Virus record (IMG/VR): IMGVR_UViG_3300027977_000226
Span: 1-21,590 of that record
Reading direction: 5' to 3' (one strand)
DNA from: a virus
DNA: 21,590 nucleotides
Positions within the stretch are counted from its first letter, which is position 1. The number at the start of each line of letters is the position of its first letter. The translations under genes were made by a program, and so were the position numbers. Of the stretch, positions 3 to 21,035 are shown in pieces. The notes under the pieces are model-generated. The model was not told the origin of the DNA. It saw nothing but the letters and a program-made list of their open reading frames with translations, and searched no databases.

Positions 3-3000
3 AGCGAAATCCAAGAACGCCTTGTTCAAGATTCGTTAAAACGCGGAGAGCTTGCCCAAGCCGGACGCAAGTGGGGGCAGTTCGCAGATCCCAAGACACA
101 GCCCAAGTGGAAAGATCTTTCACCTGAACAGCAAGAGCAGTGGCGTCAGGCTGTGGCTGATGGTAAGCCCACGATTGCGGCGACTGAGGAAATTGCACCC
201 TCTAAGAAAGAGGGTACCCCGCCAAAAAAAGTCGTAGCGGCACCAGCCGCAGCAGTGGAGGTTGAGGCATTAACTCCTGCTGAAGCTTGGGAGGATATGA
301 AACCTGACGGCGCACCTGTGTTCGCTGACTTACCACGTGCTATGCAAGACTCATGGACACGTACCGTTGAGCGCAACCGGGCTACCATAGAAGAAGCAAA
401 TCTACTTGCTGAGCAGTTCGCAGAGATAGACGCGGACACAGTTACTCCATTGCAGTTTATATCAAGTGAGATTACTGACGCAGAAACAGCGGTCGATCAA
501 AAAGATTTTGCAGGTGCGATCCGAAACATAGTGACCTATGCTTTTGTCATGGTTAAGGAGTCCAGTACCAGTGCAGCGGTTCTTCGTGCACGGGAGTGGT
601 TGCGCAATACTTCGTTTACTGCATCGCAACAAAATGCAATTGACGCTATGGCAATAGAACTCTTGAACGCCGAGCAAAATATCGAAGCAGTGTACCGTGC
701 TGATACTAAGGATGGTGATAGCAAGGGCGATCCGAAGCCGTGGTTTAACTACGCTTCACGCAGAGGACTGTTACCTAAAATCAATACAGTAATTACAGGA
801 TTGTCGTTGGAACAAGCAACCGATCTAATTAACAATGGGTCGCTGCGTACCGCTAACTTACCTGACAGTACGCTCAAAGCATACAAAGCTGCCAACCCTG
901 ACGCCGTAGCCGGTGGCGCTGCCAACGCACGTAACGATACCAAAGCGAACCCCGCAATCTCGCTTGCGAATTACATTCGTGAAGTTAACAGCCATACCGG
1001 GCAACCGTTTAATCCTCAGAAGCGAACCGCTGTTATCAAAAAACTTAGGGCGATGTGGCAAGCTGTCGAAGATATCGGTATGACAGACTTCACTGACCAG
1101 AACGGAGTGCCACTAGCTGATTACTTCACTGAGAATGGTGAGCCCATGACTGGGCGTATTGATGGGCAGTTCCGTATTGCCACGGAAGTAATTACACCGG
1201 AAGTCCAAGCTCGTCGTGAGAAAGCAATTGCTGAAGACGCGGAAGTTGCCGAGGACTACGACGCTCCGTTTAGTTTAGATGACTGGAACGTGGGTAAGAA
1301 GGATGATTACAGTGACGGCAGGAACAGTCTCTTCCGTGATGATGGGACACCTATCACTGGCCCTATCCCCATTGGTCGTGTAAAAATGTTGGTGAGTTTG
1401 TTCCTGTCTAAGCTTGGTGTTCGCCCCAAGGTACAGATCTACGCAAACCAAGCTGACTTCAAAGCTAAAAACCCCCAACTCTATAAGCGAGCCGCCGCCG
1501 CGCGTCCGCAAGGAGACTTCGATACTGCCCCTGCTGTTGGTTACTCCTTCGGTGATGGCAATGTAATAATCTTCTCTGATCGCGTGGTCACTGAGAAGCA
1601 GCTTAAGTTCGTACTAGCGCACGAGACTCTCGGTCACTTCGGTTTCCGTGGGTTGCTGACAGAGAAAGAACTGAACGCAGCACTCGACGCTGTGTACAAC
1701 GCAAGCGATAAGGTCAAAGCTGCTGTTGATACGATTGTGGCTACGCAGGGCATTCCCCGTCGAGAGGCAGTGGAAGAATATCTTGCTGACTTTGCCGGTG
1801 TATTAGATACCAACGTCCTCGCAAGGTTCTGGAACAGTATTAAGAACGGATTAAATAAACTTGGTGTACGGTTTGACGATGACACAGCTCGCTACCTCGT
1901 GAGTCAAGCTCGTCGCTACGTGCGCAACGGAGATACCGCGGGGTCGTTTGTGGACTTCAAGGCTATAGTCAACCGCATGGCTGCGGTAGAAGGAATGCAA
2001 GACCCTGATGGTGCAGGACGCTTTGCGCTTAACGGTGAGTACTACGATCAGGTAAACCGTATGGCTGCACTAGATGCCTTTGGTCAGCGCAGTGCAAAAC
2101 TTTTCGATCTGACTAACCTGTTCCAACAAGCGCAAGATCGTGGTATCAACATCAAAGATACTGTCAGTAGATTTATCAGCGAGCTGCGTACGATGAACTT
2201 CTTGGCTCGTGAGAACCAAGGGTATAGAGAGTTGTACAACATCTTTAAAGATACAAGCAAGACCGCAGCGCAGCTACGCGCAAAGTACAACATCATTATG
2301 AACACCGTGCTGTCTCCATCGGTGGAGTTGTTTGGTACGAAGTTTACCAAGGGCGCGACCAAAGCTCAGCTCGACACCGCTGCTACTATGCTTCGTGCAG
2401 CGAACACAGCCAAACGTGCAGAGGCTAGTGCTGCGAGCATCCGTGCTGTCGAGCCGATGGTTAAGATCGTCAACGGCCAACCCACTATTAATCAAGCTGT
2501 CTTCGATAAGCTCGCAGCCCGTGGCAAGATAACACTAGACCAGTTTAAAAAAGGGTTTAAGTACACCGTTAAGCGTACGATCCCTGCCACTGAAGCGTAC
2601 CGCACTGGGTTACGTACCGAGCGTGATGCGGAATTAAAGAAAGCCACAACGGACGCAGAGCGCAAAGCCATTGATCGCGACTACGAAGCACAACTTGCTG
2701 AACCATCTATGGTGGTAAACGAGGATGTAGATTTCCCTGCGATGCCCGACATCACAGACAAGAGCCCTGAGTGGATCATGTACAGCGAAGTGCGTGACGC
2801 TATGAATCAATCGGCGGCGGACTTATTGCTCGCTAACTTCAGTGCTGCTCGGGCTGCGCGGGTAAACGTCGAGCGCAAGGCAACACAGTTTCTTGCTCGT
2901 GCTTTGACTGAGAACGACAAAGCGTTTTTACAAAAGATATCCGATAGGTACCTTGAGCTGTATAAGGAAGGTGCTGTGGTGTCTGACCTTGGTAGTATCA

Positions 3001-5729
3001 CGCCAAATAAAGAAGCCATCAAGAAAGCTAACGATTTTGTTAAAGCGTTTAACACTGCGTTGCTTGGTAAAGAGTCTGACCTCAATGCGGATGTACAGAA
3101 GTTCTTCGAGCAAGCTGAAGCTGACGATGTGTTTAAAGGAATCGAAGCACTGAAGAAAGACTCTACGATCCAACGCAACGATGCGCAGTTAAAGTTTGCT
3201 GTGCAACAAGCCATCTCCAACTTAACCCTTAACGAGTATAGTAAAGATGGCGCAGAGAAATTCGCTGCTGAAACAATCGCCACTGGGTACGTACCGTTTG
3301 GTCGTGAAGGTTCGTGGCAAGTGCGTGTGCAAGCAGTAGACCCTAAGACAGGGCGCATCTACAAACTATCTGAGTCCTATCGCTCCCAATTATTCTTCGC
3401 ACAAGTGGATGGTAAAGCTGATGCGCTTCGTATGTCCGAGCGAGCTCAAGCACTGTTCGATTCCATAAAGTCCAAGGATGCTGACGGCAATGAAGCCTCT
3501 GGTATCTACGATATGGAAGTGTTAGACGGCGATAAATATGTGATCCGCAAGGTCAAGCTCGTTGCCAAACCAGAAACCGCGCGACAAACCCCCGCCGTTG
3601 TATCCGAGGCAAACTTAAACGAGATTGTCTCTGCGCTTACACGCTTCTCTATAACTATTACTCCTGAAGAACGTGACCGTTTGATTCAAGGTCTAAAAAG
3701 CCAGAACGATAGTGCACGTAGACGGTTAAAGCGGGAGAACACCCCCGGTGAAGACCCCAACACAACCAAATATGTTTCACAACATCTTGAGTCAACCGCT
3801 TCAGTGGTGGCACGGAAAGAGAATCGTCATAGACTTGATCGGCTGTTCGATGAAAGCGACCCTGACTCTAAGAACCTTTGGTACGGTAGTGAGGTAGAGT
3901 ACAACCGCCGCAAGAACAACTGGGAACTTGCACAGAAAGACCCGAACATGTCGGAGCAGCAGAAACTTGCAGCAAAGATGGAGTACATAGACTACCACTA
4001 CACTTACAAGATTAAGGAAGCCGAACAGCAAGGCAATCGGTTTATGGATCGCGGTCGCCGCGCCGTAGCGTTCATGGAGTCACAGACCAACGTGGACTAC
4101 ACAGACTTCGGTTCCGGTGAAGCCGCCTCCACGGCGCGGACATGGACAACCTTTGCCTTTATGGGAGCATCGGTTGCTACCGCCGTACTTAACTACGTAG
4201 CACTAGCTACTAATGTGCTGCCGTCGTTTAGCGGATACAACGAGAAGAATAACTTTGGCGGTGGATTCGGTTGGGGTAGGTCTTCTATCGAGTTAACCAA
4301 GGCCATCACCGATACCAAAGGAATTAAGCAAAGCGATACGAAGTTCTGGGACGATTTACTTAGCGACCCTGCCAAGCTTAAAGCATCGGGGTTTACTGAG
4401 GTTGAAGCTCGCTTTATGCAGAAGGAAGTCTCCGGCGGTACGATGCAAGCCGCATTGACCAACGCTATGCTCGGCTCCGCACGAGGTATGTTTAAGTCCG
4501 GACTACGTAAAGCTGCGGCTGAAACATGGATGTCGCTATTCAATTACACAGAACAACATAGCCGTAGAGCCACTGGACTGTCTGCGTTCCGTATGGCCTA
4601 CGCTCGCGCGATTCAGGAAGGAAAGACACCTGATGCGGCGTTTGAGGTGGCAGACAGAGTTGCTGTGGAGATGATTGATAACACTCTTGGCGAGTACGCC
4701 ATGTTCAACCGCCCTGCCATGTTCCGTGGAGATGTCCGTCAGTTCCTGTTTATGTTCAAGATGTTCCCAGTTAACAGTGTGCAGATGTTGGCTGCGCTAC
4801 CGCGCAAGGAGCAGCTACTCGCCCTTGGTATTCTTACTTTGTTCTCGGGCTTAAAGGGTCTGCCGTTTGCTGAAGATCTGATGGACTTGATTGACACCAT
4901 TGCCCAACGACTTGGGCTTGGTCCAAACGCATTGTGGAAAGGGAGTGCGGAACGCACACTAGCAGAAGCTCTAGACGCTATCGCTCCGGGTATGTCACCG
5001 GTACTACTACGTGGAGTGTTAAACACTATTACTCCTGCCAACGTGGCAGACAGAACATCCCTCTCGAACATAATACCCGGCACTGGCATTGCACTGGCAG
5101 GTGCAGATGTGGGTAGAGAACTGATTGAGATCGGTGGTCCTTTGGCTTCGTTCTTACAAGGTGCGATTGCCACGAGTACTGACGTAGCTAAGTATGGTCT
5201 TGAGACAGTGGGTCTAAAAGACGACACAACATCTATCAGTAAGATCGCAAGAGAGTCACCCGTGGCTATGGCTCGTGCACTTGGAGATATGTACGCCTAT
5301 AACAACGCCGGAGCAATCGTCAACCGCAAAGGGTACGTGGTTAGTAACGACCTACATATTGGCACCATGCTTACACGCGCGTTAGGGTTCTACCCTGCGT
5401 CCGCTGTGGTACAGAACGATGTAGTGCGGATGTCCACGCGTATCGGTGACTACCAGAAAGAAATCTCTGGGATGTACCGTGGGTTGTACGTGGCTGCGAA
5501 ATTATCCAAGGACGAAAATCGCGCTAGTGAGATTCTAGAAATGGTGCGCAACTGGAACGAAGCTGCCCAAGGTACGGGACTAGACATACCAAGGTTCAAC
5601 CAGTCAGCTAACCGTGCGTTGCGCGAAGCAAGACGGACAGCCTCTGAGCGGTATCTCAAAGCTGCACCAAGAAACATGCGGCCTGAGACTCAGAGGATAT
5701 CGAACTTGCTCGGACTAGACGAAGACTAA
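3..5729 (+). CDS. Giant phage polyvalent protein, 5'-truncated (zincin motif + PLxRFG/LPD38-like C-terminal half)
   Basis: The frame is open from base 3, so the gene begins left of the window. The GTG at 153 is only an internal valine codon, and 1908 codons are visible. The first part is a Lys/Pro/Ala/Glu-rich linker (about 100-300). A zincin-like motif HETLGHFG lies at 1620-1643, followed by a Glu-rich helix (REAVEEYLADFAG, 1761-1799) that could supply another metal ligand. A long helical middle follows. PFGREG at 3294-3311 looks like a degenerate PLxRFG box. Two hydrophobic stretches (4152-4220 and 4812-4900, the latter with GLPFAEDLMDLIDTI) and a C-terminal ALGFYPA element (around 5380) match what I recall of LPD38/PLxRFG proteins. 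Such proteins are thought to be packaged in virions and ejected into the host with the DNA. Role here is inferred: an internal virion or ejection protein, perhaps a protease effector. Family assignment is fairly sure; enzymatic activity is not. Confidence 0.82.
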   Translation, partial: SEIQERLVQDSLKRGELAQAGRKWGQFADPKTQPKWKDLSPEQQEQWRQAVADGKPTIAATEEIAPSKKEGTPPKKVVAAPAAAVEVEALTPAEAWEDMKPDGAPVFADLPRAMQDSWTRTVERNRATIEEANLLAEQFAEIDADTVTPLQFISSEITDAETAVDQKDFAGAIRNIVTYAFVMVKESSTSAAVLRAREWLRNTSFTASQQNAIDAMAIELLNAEQNIEAVYRADTKDGDSKGDPKPWFNYASRRGLLPKINTVITGLSLEQATDLINNGSLRTANLPDSTLKAYKAANPDAVAGGAANARNDTKANPAISLANYIREVNSHTGQPFNPQKRTAVIKKLRAMWQAVEDIGMTDFTDQNGVPLADYFTENGEPMTGRIDGQFRIATEVITPEVQARREKAIAEDAEVAEDYDAPFSLDDWNVGKKDDYSDGRNSLFRDDGTPITGPIPIGRVKMLVSLFLSKLGVRPKVQIYANQADFKAKNPQLYKRAAAARPQGDFDTAPAVGYSFGDGNVIIFSDRVVTEKQLKFVLAHETLGHFGFRGLLTEKELNAALDAVYNASDKVKAAVDTIVATQGIPRREAVEEYLADFAGVLDTNVLARFWNSIKNGLNKLGVRFDDDTARYLVSQARRYVRNGDTAGSFVDFKAIVNRMAAVEGMQDPDGAGRFALNGEYYDQVNRMAALDAFGQRSAKLFDLTNLFQQAQDRGINIKDTVSRFISELRTMNFLARENQGYRELYNIFKDTSKTAAQLRAKYNIIMNTVLSPSVELFGTKFTKGATKAQLDTAATMLRAANTAKRAEASAASIRAVEPMVKIVNGQPTINQAVFDKLAARGKITLDQFKKGFKYTVKRTIPATEAYRTGLRTERDAELKKATTDAERKAIDRDYEAQLAEPSMVVNEDVDFPAMPDITDKSPEWIMYSEVRDAMNQSAADLLLANFSAARAARVNVERKATQFLARALTENDKAFLQKISDRYLELYKEGAVVSDLGSITPNKEAIKKANDFVKAFNTALLGKESDLNADVQKFFEQAEADDVFKGIEALKKDSTIQRNDAQLKFAVQQAISNLTLNEYSKDGAEKFAAETIATGYVPFGREGSWQVRVQAVDPKTGRIYKLSESYRSQLFFAQVDGKADALRMSERAQALFDSIKSKDADGNEASGIYDMEVLDGDKYVIRKVKLVAKPETARQTPAVVSEANLNEIVSALTRFSITITPEERDRLIQGLKSQNDSARRRLKRENTPGEDPNTTKYVSQHLESTASVVARKENRHRLDRLFDESDPDSKNLWYGSEVEYNRRKNNWELAQKDPNMSEQQKLAAKMEYIDYHYTYKIKEAEQQGNRFMDRGRRAVAFMESQTNVDYTDFGSGEAASTARTWTTFAFMGASVATAVLNYVALATNVLPSFSGYNEKNNFGGGFGWGRSSIELTKAITDTKGIKQSDTKFWDDLLSDPAKLKASGFTEVEARFMQKEVSGGTMQAALTNAMLGSARGMFKSGLRKAAAETWMSLFNYTEQHSRRATGLSAFRMAYARAIQEGKTPDAAFEVADRVAVEMIDNTLGEYAMFNRPAMFRGDVRQFLFMFKMFPVNSVQMLAALPRKEQLLALGILTLFSGLKGLPFAEDLMDLIDTIAQRLGLGPNALWKGSAERTLAEALDAIAPGMSPVLLRGVLNTITPANVADRTSLSNIIPGTGIALAGADVGRELIEIGGPLASFLQGAIATSTDVAKYGLETVGLKDDTTSISKIARESPVAMARALGDMYAYNNAGAIVNRKGYVVSNDLHIGTMLTRALGFYPASAVVQNDVVRMSTRIGDYQKEISGMYRGLYVAAKLSKDENRASEILEMVRNWNEAAQGTGLDIPRFNQSANRALREARRTASERYLKAAPRNMRPETQRISNLLGLDED

Positions 5730-16286: not shown

Positions 16287-16916
16287 CTAAGCTCCAAACT
16301 TTGCAGCCGTACTCATAGCAGTCAGTCTAGCCAAGTCAACATTGACTTCGATTTCCTTCTTAGTGCGGTTACTCAAGGCTCGGTGTTGATCCTTCACCTC
16401 ATCACTGATTAACTCCCACAGTGGAGGCCATGCCTTGAGAGCCGGAGCCAAGGTACTGTACGCCTCAAGTAGTTTAGTCACTGAATCTACGAACTCAGTT
16501 TGTCTTGACTTGGCATATGCCACTCGCTCGTTGTGTGCCTTAACTTCGAGGTACAAGTCATCCCAGACAGGGTTATCCAGAAGTTTAACGTCGCCACGGT
16601 ACGCACTCATAAGACACGCCAACGGGTTGGCAGGAAACGAATAAGGCCAGTGTAGTGCCCGTCCGAAATTAAACTCTAATACGCAGGGCTGATCCCCAAC
16701 TGTGCCGATGTTGATACTCTCGCGGAACGTAGTCCATCCGGCGGGGAGCTGAGTCAGGTATGGAATCTGATTTCCAAAGATCCTGTTGTATATGATCTCA
16801 CCCCATGAGTGGGCAGGGCGCTGCTCCATTGCTCGGTCTACCGCAGGTTGCATCTTATTTTTGGCAGATTTAAGGATGTTTTCTGTCAAGCCCTTCGAGA
16901 ATTTTACTGTTGCCAT
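16287..16916 (-). CDS. Hypothetical phage protein, 209 residues
   Basis: This soluble protein opens MATVKFSKGLTENILKSAKN and has a central aromatic region (LPAGWTTFRESINIG, then FGRALHWPYSFPANP) and a helical, charged C-terminal third. The short strand followed by a helix at the N-terminus faintly recalls Nmad5-like (nucleotide modification associated) phage proteins, but I cannot confirm this and give no function. The start is well supported: AGGAGAAG stands four bases before ATG 16916. The stop lies one base before the next start. No membrane segment or metal-binding cluster is seen. It sits among small accessory genes rather than the replication set. Confidence 0.75.
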   Translation of the reverse strand: MATVKFSKGLTENILKSAKNKMQPAVDRAMEQRPAHSWGEIIYNRIFGNQIPYLTQLPAGWTTFRESINIGTVGDQPCVLEFNFGRALHWPYSFPANPLACLMSAYRGDVKLLDNPVWDDLYLEVKAHNERVAYAKSRQTEFVDSVTKLLEAYSTLAPALKAWPPLWELISDEVKDQHRALSNRTKKEIEVNVDLARLTAMSTAAKFGA

Positions 16917-16929
16917 GTTACTTCTCCTT

Positions 16930-17163
16930 TTAGTTTACGAACTTAGGTCTGTCACCCATACGTGACATCAAATCATCTAGCTGTCCTGCAATAATTACAA
17001 CGAACTCCTCTTGTAAAAGGTCAGAACTTGTCCCTGCTAAGGCAAGCACAGTCATCACAGCATTGACTTGTACATCAAACGGCTCACCTTGCTCAGTGAG
17101 GAAAGCGTTGAGCTTGACTGCAAGCCGCAGTACTTGTTGGTGATACTCTCTAGCTTCACTCAT
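16930..17163 (-). CDS. Small helical phage hypothetical protein
   Basis: The protein has 77 residues and is predicted to be almost all helix (REYHQQVLRLAVKLNAFL, then a hydrophobic VMTVLALAG stretch and QLDDLMSRMG). The hydrophobic part is too short for a clear membrane segment. No family recognised. AAGGAA lies eight bases before the ATG, and the start overlaps the stop of the 56-residue gene by four bases (ATGA), so it belongs to the chain that begins with the VWA gene. Confidence 0.72.
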   Translation of the reverse strand: MSEAREYHQQVLRLAVKLNAFLTEQGEPFDVQVNAVMTVLALAGTSSDLLQEEFVVIIAGQLDDLMSRMGDRPKFVN

Positions 17164-17330
17164 GGATTCATTTCCTTTAATTTTTTGGCTAGGTAATCCA
17201 ACGCTTCACCGATACAACTATCCGCTGCCGACATCAGACTCTCCAGATTACTATCGGCGTCAATCAAAGCCTCGTGGTACACATCACTCAGCAAGGCTTG
17301 TGCTGCATTAAGTTTCTCTACTGTTGTCAT
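17160..17330 (-). CDS. 56-residue helical protein in the overlap chain downstream of the VWA gene
   Basis: A complete short gene (MTTVEKLNAAQALLSDVYHE... ending KLKEMNP) occupies the gap between the VWA-zincin gene and the next one. Both ends overlap neighbours by four bases: its ATG overlaps the VWA stop, and its own stop overlaps the next ATG. GGAG stands six bases before the start. The protein is acidic and helical with a single cysteine, resembling a small bundle or adaptor. No family recognised. The double ATGA linkage and good ribosome site make it a real gene despite its size. It may work with the VWA protein, though small phage genes are often linked without shared function. Confidence 0.85.
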   Translation of the reverse strand: MTTVEKLNAAQALLSDVYHEALIDADSNLESLMSAADSCIGEALDYLAKKLKEMNP

Positions 17331-18475
17331 AGCATCTCCACTACTTCACCGAAGGGTGCACTACCAGTCTCAGTCGTAACCCACAGCACTGGTGCATCAG
17401 GCTGAGTACCGAAGCTGTTACAGCACAGGTCAGTGAGGAACACCACAGCAACAGGATCGAGCCCAAGCTCCACGATCTTATCGAACACTGGTGCAAAGTC
17501 CGTACCTCCACCGCCATGTGGCTTGATGTTGAGCATATCGTCAGGTTCGTATGTCTCTACGTGACTGACCTCACTATCAAAGTACAACACGTGGATACGC
17601 TCAGGCATCAGGTCTTCCTTGACCCGCTTGATCTCAGCAGCAAACTGATTGACTGTATGTTGGTCAATAGAACCGGAGCAGTCCACTGCGAAGCACACCT
17701 CACCCATCGCCTCACCACTGACACTGGGCAGGTACATCCCTTGTGTAATGAAGCGGCGATTAAACCGAGAGAAGCTGCGGCTATCGTTGCGACACTTAAC
17801 TAAGAAGCGTTGCAGTACATCACGCCAGTCAACCTTGGGGGTCAGTGCCTCATCGACAAGACGCTGCATACCACCACTCAACTTACCCATCATCTTGGCA
17901 GCTTGTGCAGCCTGAGCCATCTTAACTTTCCACTCAGCTTGCTGCTGTGCTTGGTCAGCAGGGCTACCCTCACCGTCCTCGCAGTCATCAAGCATATCAC
18001 CCATGTCACCGTCTTCGTTCTGCTCTGGCAAGATGTTGTAGATACCCTCGCTTGTGCTACCCCCTGCACGGTAGATGTTGGGATCGTACAGTCCGACCTT
18101 GGGCATACGTCCGATGTTGTCATCGGTCAACAATTGGTTGATTACATAGTCTGCTGCCATGTTCCAACGCTTGCGCTGTCGTCCACTTCTACGGTAGTTG
18201 TGCTCAAGCATAGGGTGCAGACACTCATGTGCTACGAGAAACTTCAACTCATCATCAGTCAACCCAGTGATGAAGTCAGGGTTAAAGGCAACACGTTTAC
18301 CGTTGGTGGCAGCAGTGGGGATGTTCTCATCCAACACGAACGGCATACTCAGTGCAATGGTACCGATGAATGGGTGCTCCAAGATGAGCGAAGTCTTGGC
18401 TTTCGCCAAGCGTGTTACTAATCGAGCCTCATCAGCAGGGCTCAAGGTCTTAACTTCTTTAGGCATTACAACCAT
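17327..18475 (-). CDS. VWA domain protein with N-terminal zincin-like metallopeptidase domain (DUF2201/CobT-like)
   Basis: The protein has 382 residues. The N-terminal domain has HECLH (H83, E84, H87) in LVAHECLHPMLEHNYR and a following WNMAADYVINQLL helix with D109 as candidate third metal ligand, matching the putative metallopeptidase domain of DUF2201 proteins. An acidic linker (about 153-172) follows. The C-terminal VWA-like domain has a complete MIDAS: D265-x-S267-x-S269, T325 (GGGGTDF) and D349 (VFLTD). Such proteins act with MoxR/CobS-type AAA+ ATPases as metal-dependent chaperones or remodelling factors, and a MoxR-type gene lies upstream in the same run. I start at ATG 18475: GGAGGT stands five bases upstream, and the start overlaps the preceding stop (TGATG). 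All catalytic and MIDAS residues are intact, so it should be active. Confidence 0.9.
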   Translation of the reverse strand: MVVMPKEVKTLSPADEARLVTRLAKAKTSLILEHPFIGTIALSMPFVLDENIPTAATNGKRVAFNPDFITGLTDDELKFLVAHECLHPMLEHNYRRSGRQRKRWNMAADYVINQLLTDDNIGRMPKVGLYDPNIYRAGGSTSEGIYNILPEQNEDGDMGDMLDDCEDGEGSPADQAQQQAEWKVKMAQAAQAAKMMGKLSGGMQRLVDEALTPKVDWRDVLQRFLVKCRNDSRSFSRFNRRFITQGMYLPSVSGEAMGEVCFAVDCSGSIDQHTVNQFAAEIKRVKEDLMPERIHVLYFDSEVSHVETYEPDDMLNIKPHGGGGTDFAPVFDKIVELGLDPVAVVFLTDLCCNSFGTQPDAPVLWVTTETGSAPFGEVVEML

Positions 18476-19323
18476 CACACACCTCCCATGAATACGGACA
18501 TCTTGTCCATGATTGCCTTGGCTTCAGCCGCAGTATCTCGGCGTAGGTCAGGGTCGTTACGTAGTGCTTCAGGATGCTTGATTAACTTCATCTCAACCTC
18601 CTGTCGCATGGCTTCTAACTGCGGGTCATCGTTAAAGTTCAGTCGTGGTAACAGGGCACAGATCTCACGAGCATTGTCCACCATGCTATCTCGGAAGATT
18701 GCCTTGGGATCAGCGAGTTTCTCTGCCATGTGCTTGACTCGTTCAAACAACCTAGTCCATACCTCCTTGAGTGCTGCCTGCTCTGCGTCCTTCACACGCC
18801 GCTCAACATCTTGTTGGATACGTGTCAACTCCTCCGAGGCAATGCTCACCCGAAAGTCTGAGGACGGTACGGGGTACACCACCATGTCCATACGAAACTT
18901 ATCCATGATCTCCCACTTGGCAGGGTAGTCAGCAGCATCGTACAGATTACCAAGGAGCCGTTCAGCGTTGGTCTTGAGTTGATCGTAGTTATCCACAAAG
19001 TCATGCACAAGGGACTCCCACTCACCCTTTTCACGCCGGAACTCAGACATAAAGTTCAGGTAGTTGGCAGTGGGTAGCATCATCGTGCCATCAATACCCC
19101 AAGGCAGGGTATTCTCGTAGTACTTCTGACGGATCAGAGTTGCTTTCTTGTGGACATTATCCAAGTAATCGTTCATCGGAAGTAACGACTTGTTAAAGCG
19201 TCCTGCACTGGTGGCTGAGTTGTTGGCATCAGTCACTTGCTTGGTGGCTTTCTTGTCGTACTTACGTGCAGTCCACTGAGAGATGGACAACTGTACCAAT
19301 AGGGCTCGGTCATTCAAGTTCAT
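18475..19323 (-). CDS. Helical DUF3150-like protein of the MoxR-VWA module
   Basis: This 282-residue protein has an LSISQWTARKYDKKAT segment (12-27), a central SLLPMNDYLDNVHKKA helix, and long charged helices to the end, including an RIQQDVERRVKDAEQAALKE coiled-coil candidate. The W-x-ARK segment, length and gene order (MoxR ATPase, this gene, VWA gene) fit DUF3150-type proteins that I recall between CobS-like and VWA genes in mobile elements. That assignment is from memory and moderate. It may be the adaptor or substrate handler of the ATPase-VWA pair. ATG 19323 has GGAG seven bases upstream. The stop is fused to the VWA start. A stem-loop lies in the gap before it. Confidence 0.75.
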   Translation of the reverse strand: MNLNDRALLVQLSISQWTARKYDKKATKQVTDANNSATSAGRFNKSLLPMNDYLDNVHKKATLIRQKYYENTLPWGIDGTMMLPTANYLNFMSEFRREKGEWESLVHDFVDNYDQLKTNAERLLGNLYDAADYPAKWEIMDKFRMDMVVYPVPSSDFRVSIASEELTRIQQDVERRVKDAEQAALKEVWTRLFERVKHMAEKLADPKAIFRDSMVDNAREICALLPRLNFNDDPQLEAMRQEVEMKLIKHPEALRNDPDLRRDTAAEAKAIMDKMSVFMGGV

Positions 19324-19350
19324 AGTTTCACTCCGTTAAAGATGTTGGTA

Positions 19351-19366
19351 GGAGGCAAGCGCCTCC
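19351..19366 (-). promoter_or_regulatory. Intergenic stem-loop between the MoxR-type ATPase and DUF3150-like genes
   Basis: GGAGGC and GCCTCC form a 6-bp perfect stem with a 4-base loop, in the 58-nt gap before the DUF3150-like gene, about 28 bases upstream of its ATG. No T-run follows in the direction of transcription. It resembles the 8589-8612 hairpin in carrying a GGAGG/CCTCC stem and a 4-base loop. It could limit readthrough, stabilise the upstream message or alter translation; the function is inferred. Confidence 0.55.
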
Positions 19367-19381
19367 CCTTGTGGATAACTA

Positions 19382-20368
19382 TCAGAACAGCACATCCTGA
19401 TGCTTGAGTGACCACTGTGTAAAGGCTTGGGTGTTAGCCAAGTCAGGGTCACGCCGTGCTGCATAGCTCACTGTCAACACACTGAACTCAGCCGGCATAC
19501 GTTCAACGTACTGACAGACTCGTTCAAAGTTCGCCTCAGTAGCCCGTTGTGCCAAGGCACCGGACAAGGCGTAGAGTGTGGCAGGATCACTCGGTACATC
19601 AGAGGTGGTAGGGTTAAGCAGGATCGCATCAGGGTTAGGCAGCTTACGGAAGATACGGACATACCCCACAAACTCTGCTGCTGCACCCTCACCCACTGCA
19701 CCTTTGAAGCACTCGAACTCTGCTTCAGGAGGCACCGTACCCAGTACATCACTGATACCCTCCACCCATGATCTAGGGGTAGCGTTCTGATCCCGTTGTG
19801 CATCGAAGTCATGCAACAAGTTGGGACGAAAGCGAAGGAAGCTCACAACCTCTGGCTTAACACCGTTTCGCAGTGCCCATGCAGTCCAGTCATCGAGGTG
19901 AGTCTCAAGCTCTAGCACTGTCTCTCTGTTACGCAAGTGGGACAACACTCGGTTAGCACCTGCTCGGTCAGACTGTCTGTTGCCAGTGGAAATAACCTGC
20001 CATCCATCGGGCATCTCTACACCATGCAGAGTACGTGCTTGGCAGATGTTAGCCAGTACTTTTTGTAAGTCAGCACCTGCTTGGTTACGGTCATCGAACA
20101 GCAAGATGCCACGCTCTGGTGCTTTACCCTTGACAGGAAACCACTCAGGCAGCTTGTAATGTAGGCGGTCTGAACCATCAGGGAACAGGATACCGAAGTC
20201 CTCGACCAACATGGTTGGCATATGCCGTTCAATGCAGGTAATACCAAGTTCTTCTGCAACTTGGTGGACGATGGTAGTCTTGCCACCACCCGGTGGCCCT
20301 TCGATACACACTGTACGGTTAATGGGGAACAGTGCCTTGAGTGTGTCCTTCAGTGTCGATGCTCTCAT
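19382..20368 (-). CDS. MoxR/CobS-type AAA+ ATPase
   Basis: This 328-residue protein is nearly all one AAA+ unit. Walker A is GPPGGGKT (24-31), Walker B is GILLFDD (87-93, ending in Asp where most members have Glu), the sensor 1 segment is VISTGNRQSDRAGA (N130), and arginine-finger candidates are in SHLRNRE (143-149). The order and the LVEDFG / LPEWFP elements fit the MoxR branch, which works with VWA proteins to insert metals or remodel complexes. The downstream VWA-zincin gene strongly supports that pairing. ATG 20368 has GGGAG six bases upstream and starts one base after the previous stop. The Asp in Walker B is conservative and probably allows hydrolysis. Confidence 0.9.
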   Translation of the reverse strand: MRASTLKDTLKALFPINRTVCIEGPPGGGKTTIVHQVAEELGITCIERHMPTMLVEDFGILFPDGSDRLHYKLPEWFPVKGKAPERGILLFDDRNQAGADLQKVLANICQARTLHGVEMPDGWQVISTGNRQSDRAGANRVLSHLRNRETVLELETHLDDWTAWALRNGVKPEVVSFLRFRPNLLHDFDAQRDQNATPRSWVEGISDVLGTVPPEAEFECFKGAVGEGAAAEFVGYVRIFRKLPNPDAILLNPTTSDVPSDPATLYALSGALAQRATEANFERVCQYVERMPAEFSVLTVSYAARRDPDLANTQAFTQWSLKHQDVLF

Positions 20369-20369
20369 C

Positions 20370-20543
20370 TTAGACTCCCTTGTAAAGTTTATGGTCTACG
20401 CCTACTGATACTACGGTACTGCCACCTCGCTTATCCCTTGCAGCTTTCGCCTTTTGCTTGGTTTGGAAATAGATAGGATGCTTATCAGTTCCAAGCACTG
20501 CCGATCCACCTTTGCTGTGCCGCAACATAAACAAACGCTTCAT
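20370..20543 (-). CDS. 57-residue conserved phage protein (HSKGG type)
   Basis: A complete short gene encoding MKRLFMLRHSKGG..., with YFQTKQKAKAARDKRGG in the middle and SVGVDHKLYKGV at the end. The RHSKGG opening, central KAKAARD and closing DHK segment match a small basic protein I recall in many proteobacterial phages, function unknown. AGGAGA stands six bases before the ATG and contains the stop codon of the upstream membrane peptide gene. It ends one base before the MoxR-type start. The high Lys/Arg content suggests contact with nucleic acid, which is a guess. Confidence 0.88.
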   Translation of the reverse strand: MKRLFMLRHSKGGSAVLGTDKHPIYFQTKQKAKAARDKRGGSTVVSVGVDHKLYKGV

Positions 20544-20553
20544 AGTCACTCTC

Positions 20554-20646: not shown

Positions 20647-20800
20647 CATCACTCTCCTTGAGTTCTTGGATTGGTTTCCATCCGAACTTACGCCATGTCC
20701 TCTGTATATCTGTACTGGCTGAGTTGTAATAGACGAAGGTTGGATCATCCTTCAGAGGGTAGGACAGGCGGGGCTTGGTAGGGGGTTCTAGTTCATACAT
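20627..20800 (-). CDS. 57-residue phage hypothetical protein
   Basis: A short gene starting MYELEPPTKPRLSYPLKDDP, with YNSASTDIQRTWRKFGWKPI toward the end. The Pro-rich head and STDIQRTWRKFGW element look like genuine coding sequence and recall small phage proteins of unknown role. A longer reading of the same frame upstream becomes a Thr/Ser/Arg repeat that is clearly the shadow of the neighbouring gene. ATG 20800 overlaps the end of the 80-residue gene by eight bases; the ribosome site is weak (GAAG), so translation is likely coupled. No metal site or membrane segment. Confidence 0.75.
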   Translation of the reverse strand: MYELEPPTKPRLSYPLKDDPTFVYYNSASTDIQRTWRKFGWKPIQELKESDDVVKDH

Positions 20801-21035
20801 CTTCTTTTTCCTTATCGGTTGTGTCTTGGGACTCGGTAATGTCTGTGATCTCGTTGATCTCGTTGATCTCGTTGATGTCGTAGATGTAGTTGGATACACA
20901 GTTGTCAGCATCAGCAGAGTCGTACTGTGCCCATGCCAAAGCCTCTGCCTCCTCCGCATCACGGGCTTCGATCTCATAGTAGGCATAGCCAGTACGTTCA
21001 ATCACAACTAGATAGGTTCGGGTTAGTGAGGTCAT
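20793..21035 (-). CDS. Small acidic protein with Ile-Asn-Glu tandem repeats
   Basis: The protein has 80 residues. The N-terminal half (RTYLVVIERTGYAYYEIEAR, then DAEEAEALAWAQY) looks like a small strand-strand-helix domain of the type seen in DpnD/PcfM-like and other short phage proteins. The C-terminal 35 residues are very acidic and contain INE three times, encoded by a 9-base tandem repeat, then a Thr/Asp/Glu/Lys tail. GGAGG lies four to five bases before the ATG. The start overlaps the previous stop (ATGA). A DNA-mimic or partner-binding role for the acidic tail is possible but only a guess. Confidence 0.78.
   Translation of the reverse strand: MTSLTRTYLVVIERTGYAYYEIEARDAEEAEALAWAQYDSADADNCVSNYIYDINEINEINEITDITESQDTTDKEKEDV
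20851..20877. repeat. 9-base tandem repeat (about three copies) coding for Ile-Asn-Glu
   Basis: The unit TCGTTGATC occurs in tandem at 20851-20877, the last copy ending TG in place of TC, with a GATC fragment just before. It keeps the reading frame, adding one INE triplet per copy. Such arrays change length by slippage without breaking the gene. Confidence 0.85.

Follow-up and report, generated by a model that had tools for sequence, protein, structure and literature searches.

The stretch of viral DNA analysed here (the window; 21,590 nucleotides, positions 1 to 21,590 of IMG/VR record IMGVR_UViG_3300027977_000226) raises the question of what a phage does with three consecutive genes for a MoxR-type AAA+ ATPase, a DUF3150-related helical protein and a protein that fuses a zincin metallopeptidase to a VWA domain. 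A preliminary description of the window considered the role of this module unexplained. A MoxR/peptidase-vWA pair, to which gp24/gp25 of phage N4 correspond, had however already been published with a proposed role.

Three consecutive genes and their neighbours

The three open reading frames are found on the minus strand at 17327-20368, where the preliminary description had placed them: the ATPase gene (19382..20368, 328 aa, phrog_1297), the gene of the middle component (18475..19323, 282 aa) and the zincin-VWA fusion gene (17327..18475, phrog_1314). Both junctions reported for the chain are visible in the sequence. The middle and VWA genes overlap by TGATG, the stop codon TGA lying at 18477-18475 and the ATG at 18475, and as this overlap points to the ATG as the start, we assign the VWA protein 382 residues rather than the 383 counted from an upstream GTG. 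The ATGA overlap of the VWA stop with a 56-aa ORF (17160..17330, minus strand), taken earlier as a continuation of the chain, is likewise real, but among related viral loci no conservation of this ORF was found outside near-identical contigs, and we reject it as a part of the module.

Downstream, it is the gene of a 209-aa protein (16287..16916, minus strand) that is conserved in the phage lineage of the window, and it follows the module in nearly all viral loci of sufficient length. It evolves faster than the module genes, as judged by dN/dS, and appears restricted to phages, its product having no match in the plasmid or bacterial loci compared. Directly upstream of the ATPase gene, a 59-aa ORF (20370..20549, minus strand) recurs in many sister loci and is a candidate member of the module.

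Motifs and relatives of the three proteins

Domain, homology and profile searches confirmed the identities first proposed for the three products. The ATPase matches Pfam AAA and AAA_5, both above cut-off, and combines this domain with the Walker A motif, sensor Asn and Arg finger of the MoxR clade; Walker A reads GPPGGGKT (20276-20299, minus strand), Asn130, Arg148 and Arg199 are invariant across 22 aligned homologues, and the best solved PDB match of the ATPase profile is midasin. The statement that all active-site residues are intact holds for Walker A and for the HExxH and MIDAS motifs of the VWA protein, but not for Walker B, which is FDD (20090-20107, minus strand) instead of the usual DE. 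This DD is a family feature that tracks the presence of DUF3150: among DUF3150-linked ATPases with a scorable Walker B it occurs in 136, with DE in two that are copies of one phage, whereas ATPases without DUF3150 have DE in nine out of nine.

The middle protein of the window has no significant Pfam match of its own, PF11348 at its gathering score included. A plasmid homologue reaches 22.1 bits against PF11348 (gathering score 24.9), and 13 of 25 homologues match that family weakly. The protein shares 33% identity (E 3e-45) with the plasmid protein WP_058698146, named DUF3150, and hhalign with broad alignments on both sides joined the middle-protein set to classical DUF3150 at 97% over 232 columns. 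As the window DUF3150 set gave 0.7% against the single pCAR1 sequence, the link to classical DUF3150 rests on the wider alignments. Transitive and profile-profile homology thus place the protein with DUF3150 and not in an unrelated family, which would have refuted the reading first proposed. Its structure model is of low confidence (pLDDT 66) and had no significant match in the PDB. On the tree, the presence of DUF3150 needs two changes, the branches being long.

The VWA protein matches the DUF2201_N metallopeptidase (3e-46, 158.6 bits against a gathering score of 23.2) and the VWA-like DUF2201 (4e-30, 104.9 bits against 26.4). In the homologue alignment its zinc motif HExxH (HECLH; 18215..18229, minus strand) is invariant at H84, E85 and H88 (numbered from the GTG), as is the motif NxAxDxxIN (NMAADYVIN; 18137..18163, minus strand) at N106, D110 and N114, and Asp110 is the probable third zinc ligand. 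The MIDAS motif DCSGS (17669..17683) and its partners Thr326 (17501-17503) and Asp350 (17429-17431), all on the minus strand, are invariant as well. Structure comparison supports the VWA fold (Z about 12). A sequence search for solved relatives returned MJ1213 selecase alone, weakly and around HExxH, and the same protein was also recovered by fold comparison. Since HExxH is not intact in three homologues, from Variovorax (ATVLH), Caballeronia (HDVLH) and one gut phage contig, peptidase activity is not universal in the family.

As similar phage pairs are annotated cobST in published work (PMC8651126, PMC11288001) and share the MoxR and VWA architecture, the customary auxiliary-metabolic-gene label would make these proteins cobaltochelatase subunits CobS and CobT that raise host cobalamin. 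We reject this identity as exceedingly improbable. The VWA protein matches DUF2201, with no CobT or CobT_C match in Pfam; a genuine CobT lacks HExxH, and its profile comparison with the VWA protein gave 12% probability over 40 columns. A further CobT protein, read in a doubtful frame, is not used. Moreover, CobN was absent from the 12 sister phages searched.

Known MoxR and VWA systems

The MoxR and metallopeptidase-vWA pair of the group 2.2 jumbo phages was described by Iyer et al. 2021 (PMC7824862), who proposed it as a virion-assembly chaperone by analogy with Acidianus two-tailed virus. The window has the same arrangement, with neighbouring genes for an ATPase of the same family and for an N-terminal metallopeptidase fused to vWA, and homologues were found in PA5oct and Munch. 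Unlike the window, the jumbo-phage pair has no DUF3150 gene detected nearby, its Walker B is DE and a virion role has been proposed for it. Phage N4 is similar in that gp25 is composed of DUF2201_N and DUF2201, gp24 is an AAA+ protein and the genes lie on the replication side, yet it has two genes and no DUF3150, and the Schitoviridae homologues are below about 35% identity. The genes gp24/gp25 are core genes of the Schitoviridae; the N4 record labels gp25 an HNH endonuclease, and a search of the CRISPRi-ART paper found no data on the two. Where the pair lacks DUF3150, as in N4, jumbo phages and pSYSA, its function may be another one.

The triad of the Burkholderiales plasmids (for example Cupriavidus pMTS2 and Burkholderia pBMC401) has three homologous proteins in the same order, although at about 32-40% identity, on conjugative plasmids and with other neighbours (PRTRC genes). 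The pCAR1/IncC set, and by report SXT/R391, has the three component classes, HExxH and VWA in the third and recombination genes as neighbours, whereas its VWA protein belongs to a separate, longer family of about 600 aa with an EDIRIER-type motif after HExxH, and its DUF3150 matches the window protein at profile level only. The ternary conflict systems (PMC7159879) also add a constant third protein to a MoxR-vWA pair, but this is VMAP, iSTAND or FtsH, or a vWA-fused beta-propeller, and not DUF3150; Pfam scans of the window proteins and their homologues showed none of the four.

NorQ/NorD, RavA/ViaA and midasin share with the window a MoxR-clade ATPase with a MIDAS VWA partner, and differ in having no peptidase domain, no DUF3150 and cellular clients. 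Few MoxR/VWA pairs have been studied as well as NorQ/NorD and CbbQ/CbbO (PMC9976466), and the module could, like NorQD or CbbQO, insert a metal cofactor into, or activate, one enzyme encoded by the element. We regard this as very unlikely: no single enzyme gene was seen, by eye, to travel with the module across phages, plasmids and ICEs, and the 209-aa neighbour is confined to phages.

Distribution and proposed role

The three genes do travel together, as had been supposed. All 135 related viral loci through which no contig end cuts have them together, in the same order and on the same strand, and a search with the middle protein alone gave the full triad in 16 of 16 bacterial loci; in Bacteroidota the order is shuffled (ATP-VWA-MID) and the linkage retained. 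Their dN/dS values of 0.06-0.17, next to 0.10 for the DNA polymerase, place all three under strong purifying selection like that gene, in agreement with the earlier view that selection maintains the module. A DNA-level search in phages gave no match.

The MoxR/zincin-VWA pair was already known from jumbo phages; we show here the same triad on phages, conjugative plasmids and transposons. The CobS/DUF3150/VWA runs that the preliminary description mentioned for mobile elements were indeed found, with the triad on Burkholderiales plasmids and on Bacteroidota conjugative elements. Plasmid triads adjoin PRTRC or T4SS genes. Chromosomal elements with the triad hold CtnDOT tra genes and ParB, or RecT, SSB, primase and RadC, and the more distant MoxR/DUF3150/HExxH-VWA set of pCAR1 and IncC plasmids lies near ssb-bet-exo or recT(-exo) genes. 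The phage module adjoins genes for DNA polymerase, a PDDEXK nuclease and an SNF2 helicase. Gene neighbourhood indicates company, not substrate.

This distribution bears on the proposal published for jumbo phages, by which the MoxR ATPase and its peptidase-vWA cochaperone would assemble and cut structural proteins. The peptidase motif is intact across the phage lineage, and the annotation of the homologous ATPase of PA5oct notes its detection by mass spectrometry (ESI-MS/MS; presumably in the virion proteome), in keeping with a link to the virion in that phage. However, the full triad is carried by plasmids and conjugative transposons, which have no virion, the phage module adjoins replication genes, and in 12 near-complete sister genomes it lies within the DNA-metabolism arm, the large virion-type protein being encoded on the other strand in 12/12, and the terminase likewise in all nine where a terminase was found. 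We therefore consider virion assembly unlikely as the primary function, as the same module serves elements that build no particle, and its general job is probably another one.

Host defence confronts phages, plasmids and ICEs alike, and carriage by all three is also what would be expected of a counter-defence or host-takeover function, in which the machine would extract and cleave, for instance, a defence ATPase or nuclease of the host that blocks incoming DNA. Deletions of bet, exo, s067, s068 or s070 in SXT cut transfer at most 10-fold (PMC2791158); from pCAR1-SXT conservation (PMC2642839) and IncC gene order we infer that s067, s068 and s070 are the triad genes, and so modest an effect in laboratory hosts would suit such a function, although the reduction is equally in keeping with the DNA-stage role proposed below. 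On the other hand, the module is linked to core replication and recombination genes rather than to anti-restriction islands, every sister phage keeps it like a core gene, and a PADLOC scan, whose library holds defence and not anti-defence proteins, gave weak P-loop matches only. We consider a counter-defence role unlikely.

That the module is an AAA+ remodelling machine of three components is very probable. Its spread over mobile elements speaks for a function in the establishment, replication or recombination of element DNA, and we lean slightly towards action at the DNA stage rather than in virion assembly. By analogy with the MoxR/midasin clade the ATPase would form a hexameric ring, the C-terminal VWA domain would grip an acidic group of the substrate through the MIDAS metal and couple it to the ring, and ATP hydrolysis would pull or reshape the substrate, as with NorQ/NorD and midasin. 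The N-terminal zincin, when active, may cut the exposed segment, as its intact motifs suggest, and the DUF3150 protein, the constant third subunit by its linkage, is probably an adaptor or scaffold. The most likely targets would be protein-DNA complexes as the element establishes, replicates or recombines its DNA, or else a host factor that blocks these steps. A wider reading, to which we give a probability of about 0.35, sees in MoxR/DUF3150/zincin-VWA a machine general to mobile elements that exists in two diverged versions (DUF2201-type and pCAR1/IncC-type) and remodels or cleaves protein-DNA complexes while the DNA of phages, plasmids and ICEs replicates or recombines; phage 'cobS/cobT' pairs whose CobT carries HExxH and VWA would then belong to it and not to vitamin B12 synthesis.

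Hundreds of phages, the model phage N4 among them, carry parts of the system, as do over a thousand plasmid records if the distant DUF3150 genes of the pCAR1/IncC type are counted. Databases label the peptidase-VWA subunit 'HNH endonuclease' and similar pairs have been published as B12 auxiliary metabolic genes. A triad common to phages, conjugative plasmids and transposons shifts the question from virion assembly to the maintenance of mobile DNA, which is testable in N4 or a laboratory plasmid.

The module genes and their setting

In this 21,590-bp viral metagenome fragment, a minus-strand gene arm that takes up all of the sequence right of 5.7 kb encodes a DUF927/primase-like protein, an SNF2-type helicase, a PDDEXK nuclease and a family A DNA polymerase. 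The module lies upstream of the polymerase gene on the same strand and comprises a MoxR-type ATPase (19382-20368), a middle protein (18475-19323) and a zincin-VWA protein (17327-18475). A long plus-strand ORF (3-5729) abuts the arm at its end and is found in all 12 near-complete sister genomes; its last ~500 residues resemble a large F116-like phage protein, labelled structural in some records, and the remainder is without match. In 12 of 12 sister phages the module and the large virion-type protein are encoded on opposite strands, and terminase, located in nine of them, is in each case also opposite the module. In nearly all sister phages the module is followed by a gene for a 209-aa protein of unknown family (16287-16916), which evolves at a higher rate than the module and has no counterpart beside it on plasmids. 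An 80-aa minus-strand ORF (20793-21035) contains a repeated Ile-Asn-Glu run arising from 9- and 18-bp tandem repeats at 20839-20892.

Identity of the three proteins

In the zincin-VWA protein a DUF2201_N metallopeptidase domain precedes a DUF2201 VWA-like domain. An alignment of 28 members, Schitoviridae phages among them, shows the HExxH, NxAxDxxIN and MIDAS residues to be invariant. Its predicted structure (mean pLDDT 79) matches the VWA fold with a Z of ~12, and more weakly, around the HExxH, selecase (minigluzincin). Many phage records label this family (phrog_1314) 'HNH endonuclease'; as N4 gp25 (L183:2165-3307) contains DUF2201_N and DUF2201 and gives no match to an HNH domain, the label looks like an annotation error that has spread between records.

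The middle protein, described preliminarily as helical and DUF3150-like, has no significant Pfam match. It shares 33% identity (E 3e-45) with a plasmid protein of Cupriavidus carrying the name DUF3150 at NCBI, 13 of its 25 relatives show a weak PF11348 match, and broad profiles align it with classical DUF3150 over 232 columns at 97% probability, which makes it a divergent DUF3150 relative, as first supposed. A homologue 74% identical is encoded on a 7.4-kb contig (L164) that resembles the same phage group and is binned with an actinobacterium MAG, which may be a host hint or misbinning. A distant homologue in Tunturiibacter phage Tunturi_3 (L187:4707-5666), annotated as HNH endonuclease, lies downstream of a different AAA protein, and no DUF2201 gene was found nearby in the 10.5 kb examined.

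The ATPase profile gives midasin as the best solved relative. Walker B of the window ATPase (20090-20107) reads FDD, not DE. DD outnumbers DE by 136 to 2 where DUF3150 is linked, the lone exception being one phage (Pag-Yong1/MinM2), whereas ATPases without DUF3150 have DE in nine cases and DD in none; the 136 come mostly from one phage lineage and form a pattern, not 136 independent events. DD is also shared by plasmid and bacterial members, and goes together with the presence of DUF3150.

Linkage and distribution on mobile elements

Two scans of viral contigs yielded 152 loci, nearest relatives only and with some contigs counted twice, about half of them retrieved with the zincin-VWA query, independently of the middle protein. 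The three genes stand in one order on one strand in all 135 loci without neighbours lost at a contig end. The bacterial scan is the stronger test of linkage: with the middle protein as sole query, the ATPase and zincin-VWA genes adjoin its gene in 16/16 loci (Burkholderiales, a Dechloromonas, Acidobacteriota, Armatimonadota, Cloacimonadota and Bacteroidota), one further locus being a viral-looking contig binned as actinobacterium. The three genes do travel together, the point on which the preliminary description called for a neighbourhood survey. In Bacteroidota the order is ATPase-VWA-DUF3150, and as linkage is kept despite rearrangement, this fits the prediction of a functional complex. The dN/dS values of the module genes (0.06-0.17) are similar to that of the DNA polymerase, confirming that selection maintains the module.

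On Burkholderia and Cupriavidus plasmids the triad adjoins PRTRC genes and a type IV secretion operon, in Chitinophaga it lies between CtnDOT-type tra genes and ParB, and in Dechloromonas it is accompanied by RecT, SSB, primase and RadC. A distant parallel MoxR-DUF3150-VWA set is present on pCAR1, inside one transcribed operon, and is reported to be conserved in SXT, R391, R478 and Rts1 (PMC2642839); on an IncC plasmid, ssb-bet-exo is flanked by an AAA ATPase gene and a DUF3150-VWA pair. The CobS/DUF3150/VWA runs that the preliminary description mentions for mobile elements are real. The VWA proteins of the pCAR1/IncC set, unexpectedly, also carry an N-terminal HExxH. Two phage proteins annotated CobT (L194:3693-5645, L195:3453-5270) combine an N-terminal HExxH with a C-terminal MIDAS; one genuine CobT taken for comparison has no HExxH, and the published claim that the peptidase annotation of phage CobT is an error merits a recheck.

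Proposed role

Remodelling by a MoxR ring paired with a MIDAS partner is well established, as in NorQD (PMC9976466). The addition of a peptidase domain to this design has been described from jumbo phages and attributed there to virion assembly (PMC7824862). As plasmids and transposons also carry the module, virion assembly is unlikely to be its shared function, although the module may have a virion role in some phages: for jumbo phage PA5oct, the annotation of the ATPase notes detection by mass spectrometry. Beyond the identity, motifs, conservation, linkage, mobile-element distribution and strand position established here, we favour action at the DNA stage, in which a MoxR hexamer, with the DUF3150 protein as adaptor, would handle the substrate, remodelling or cleaving protein-DNA complexes. 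The HExxH is broken and the MIDAS motif kept in three family members, from Variovorax (L163:8013-9311, ATVLH), Caballeronia (L171:7615-8859, HDVLH) and a gut phage contig (L182:2175-3413, motif missing), natural variants apparently without peptidase activity. That two plasmid-type members and the phage contig have lost the catalytic Glu or His suggests that the core activity is remodelling rather than cleavage. Transfer of SXT dropped at most 10-fold when bet, exo, s067, s068 or s070 was deleted (PMC2791158); if s067/s068/s070 correspond to the triad, as we infer, these genes would be helpful rather than essential, on a par with the recombination genes.
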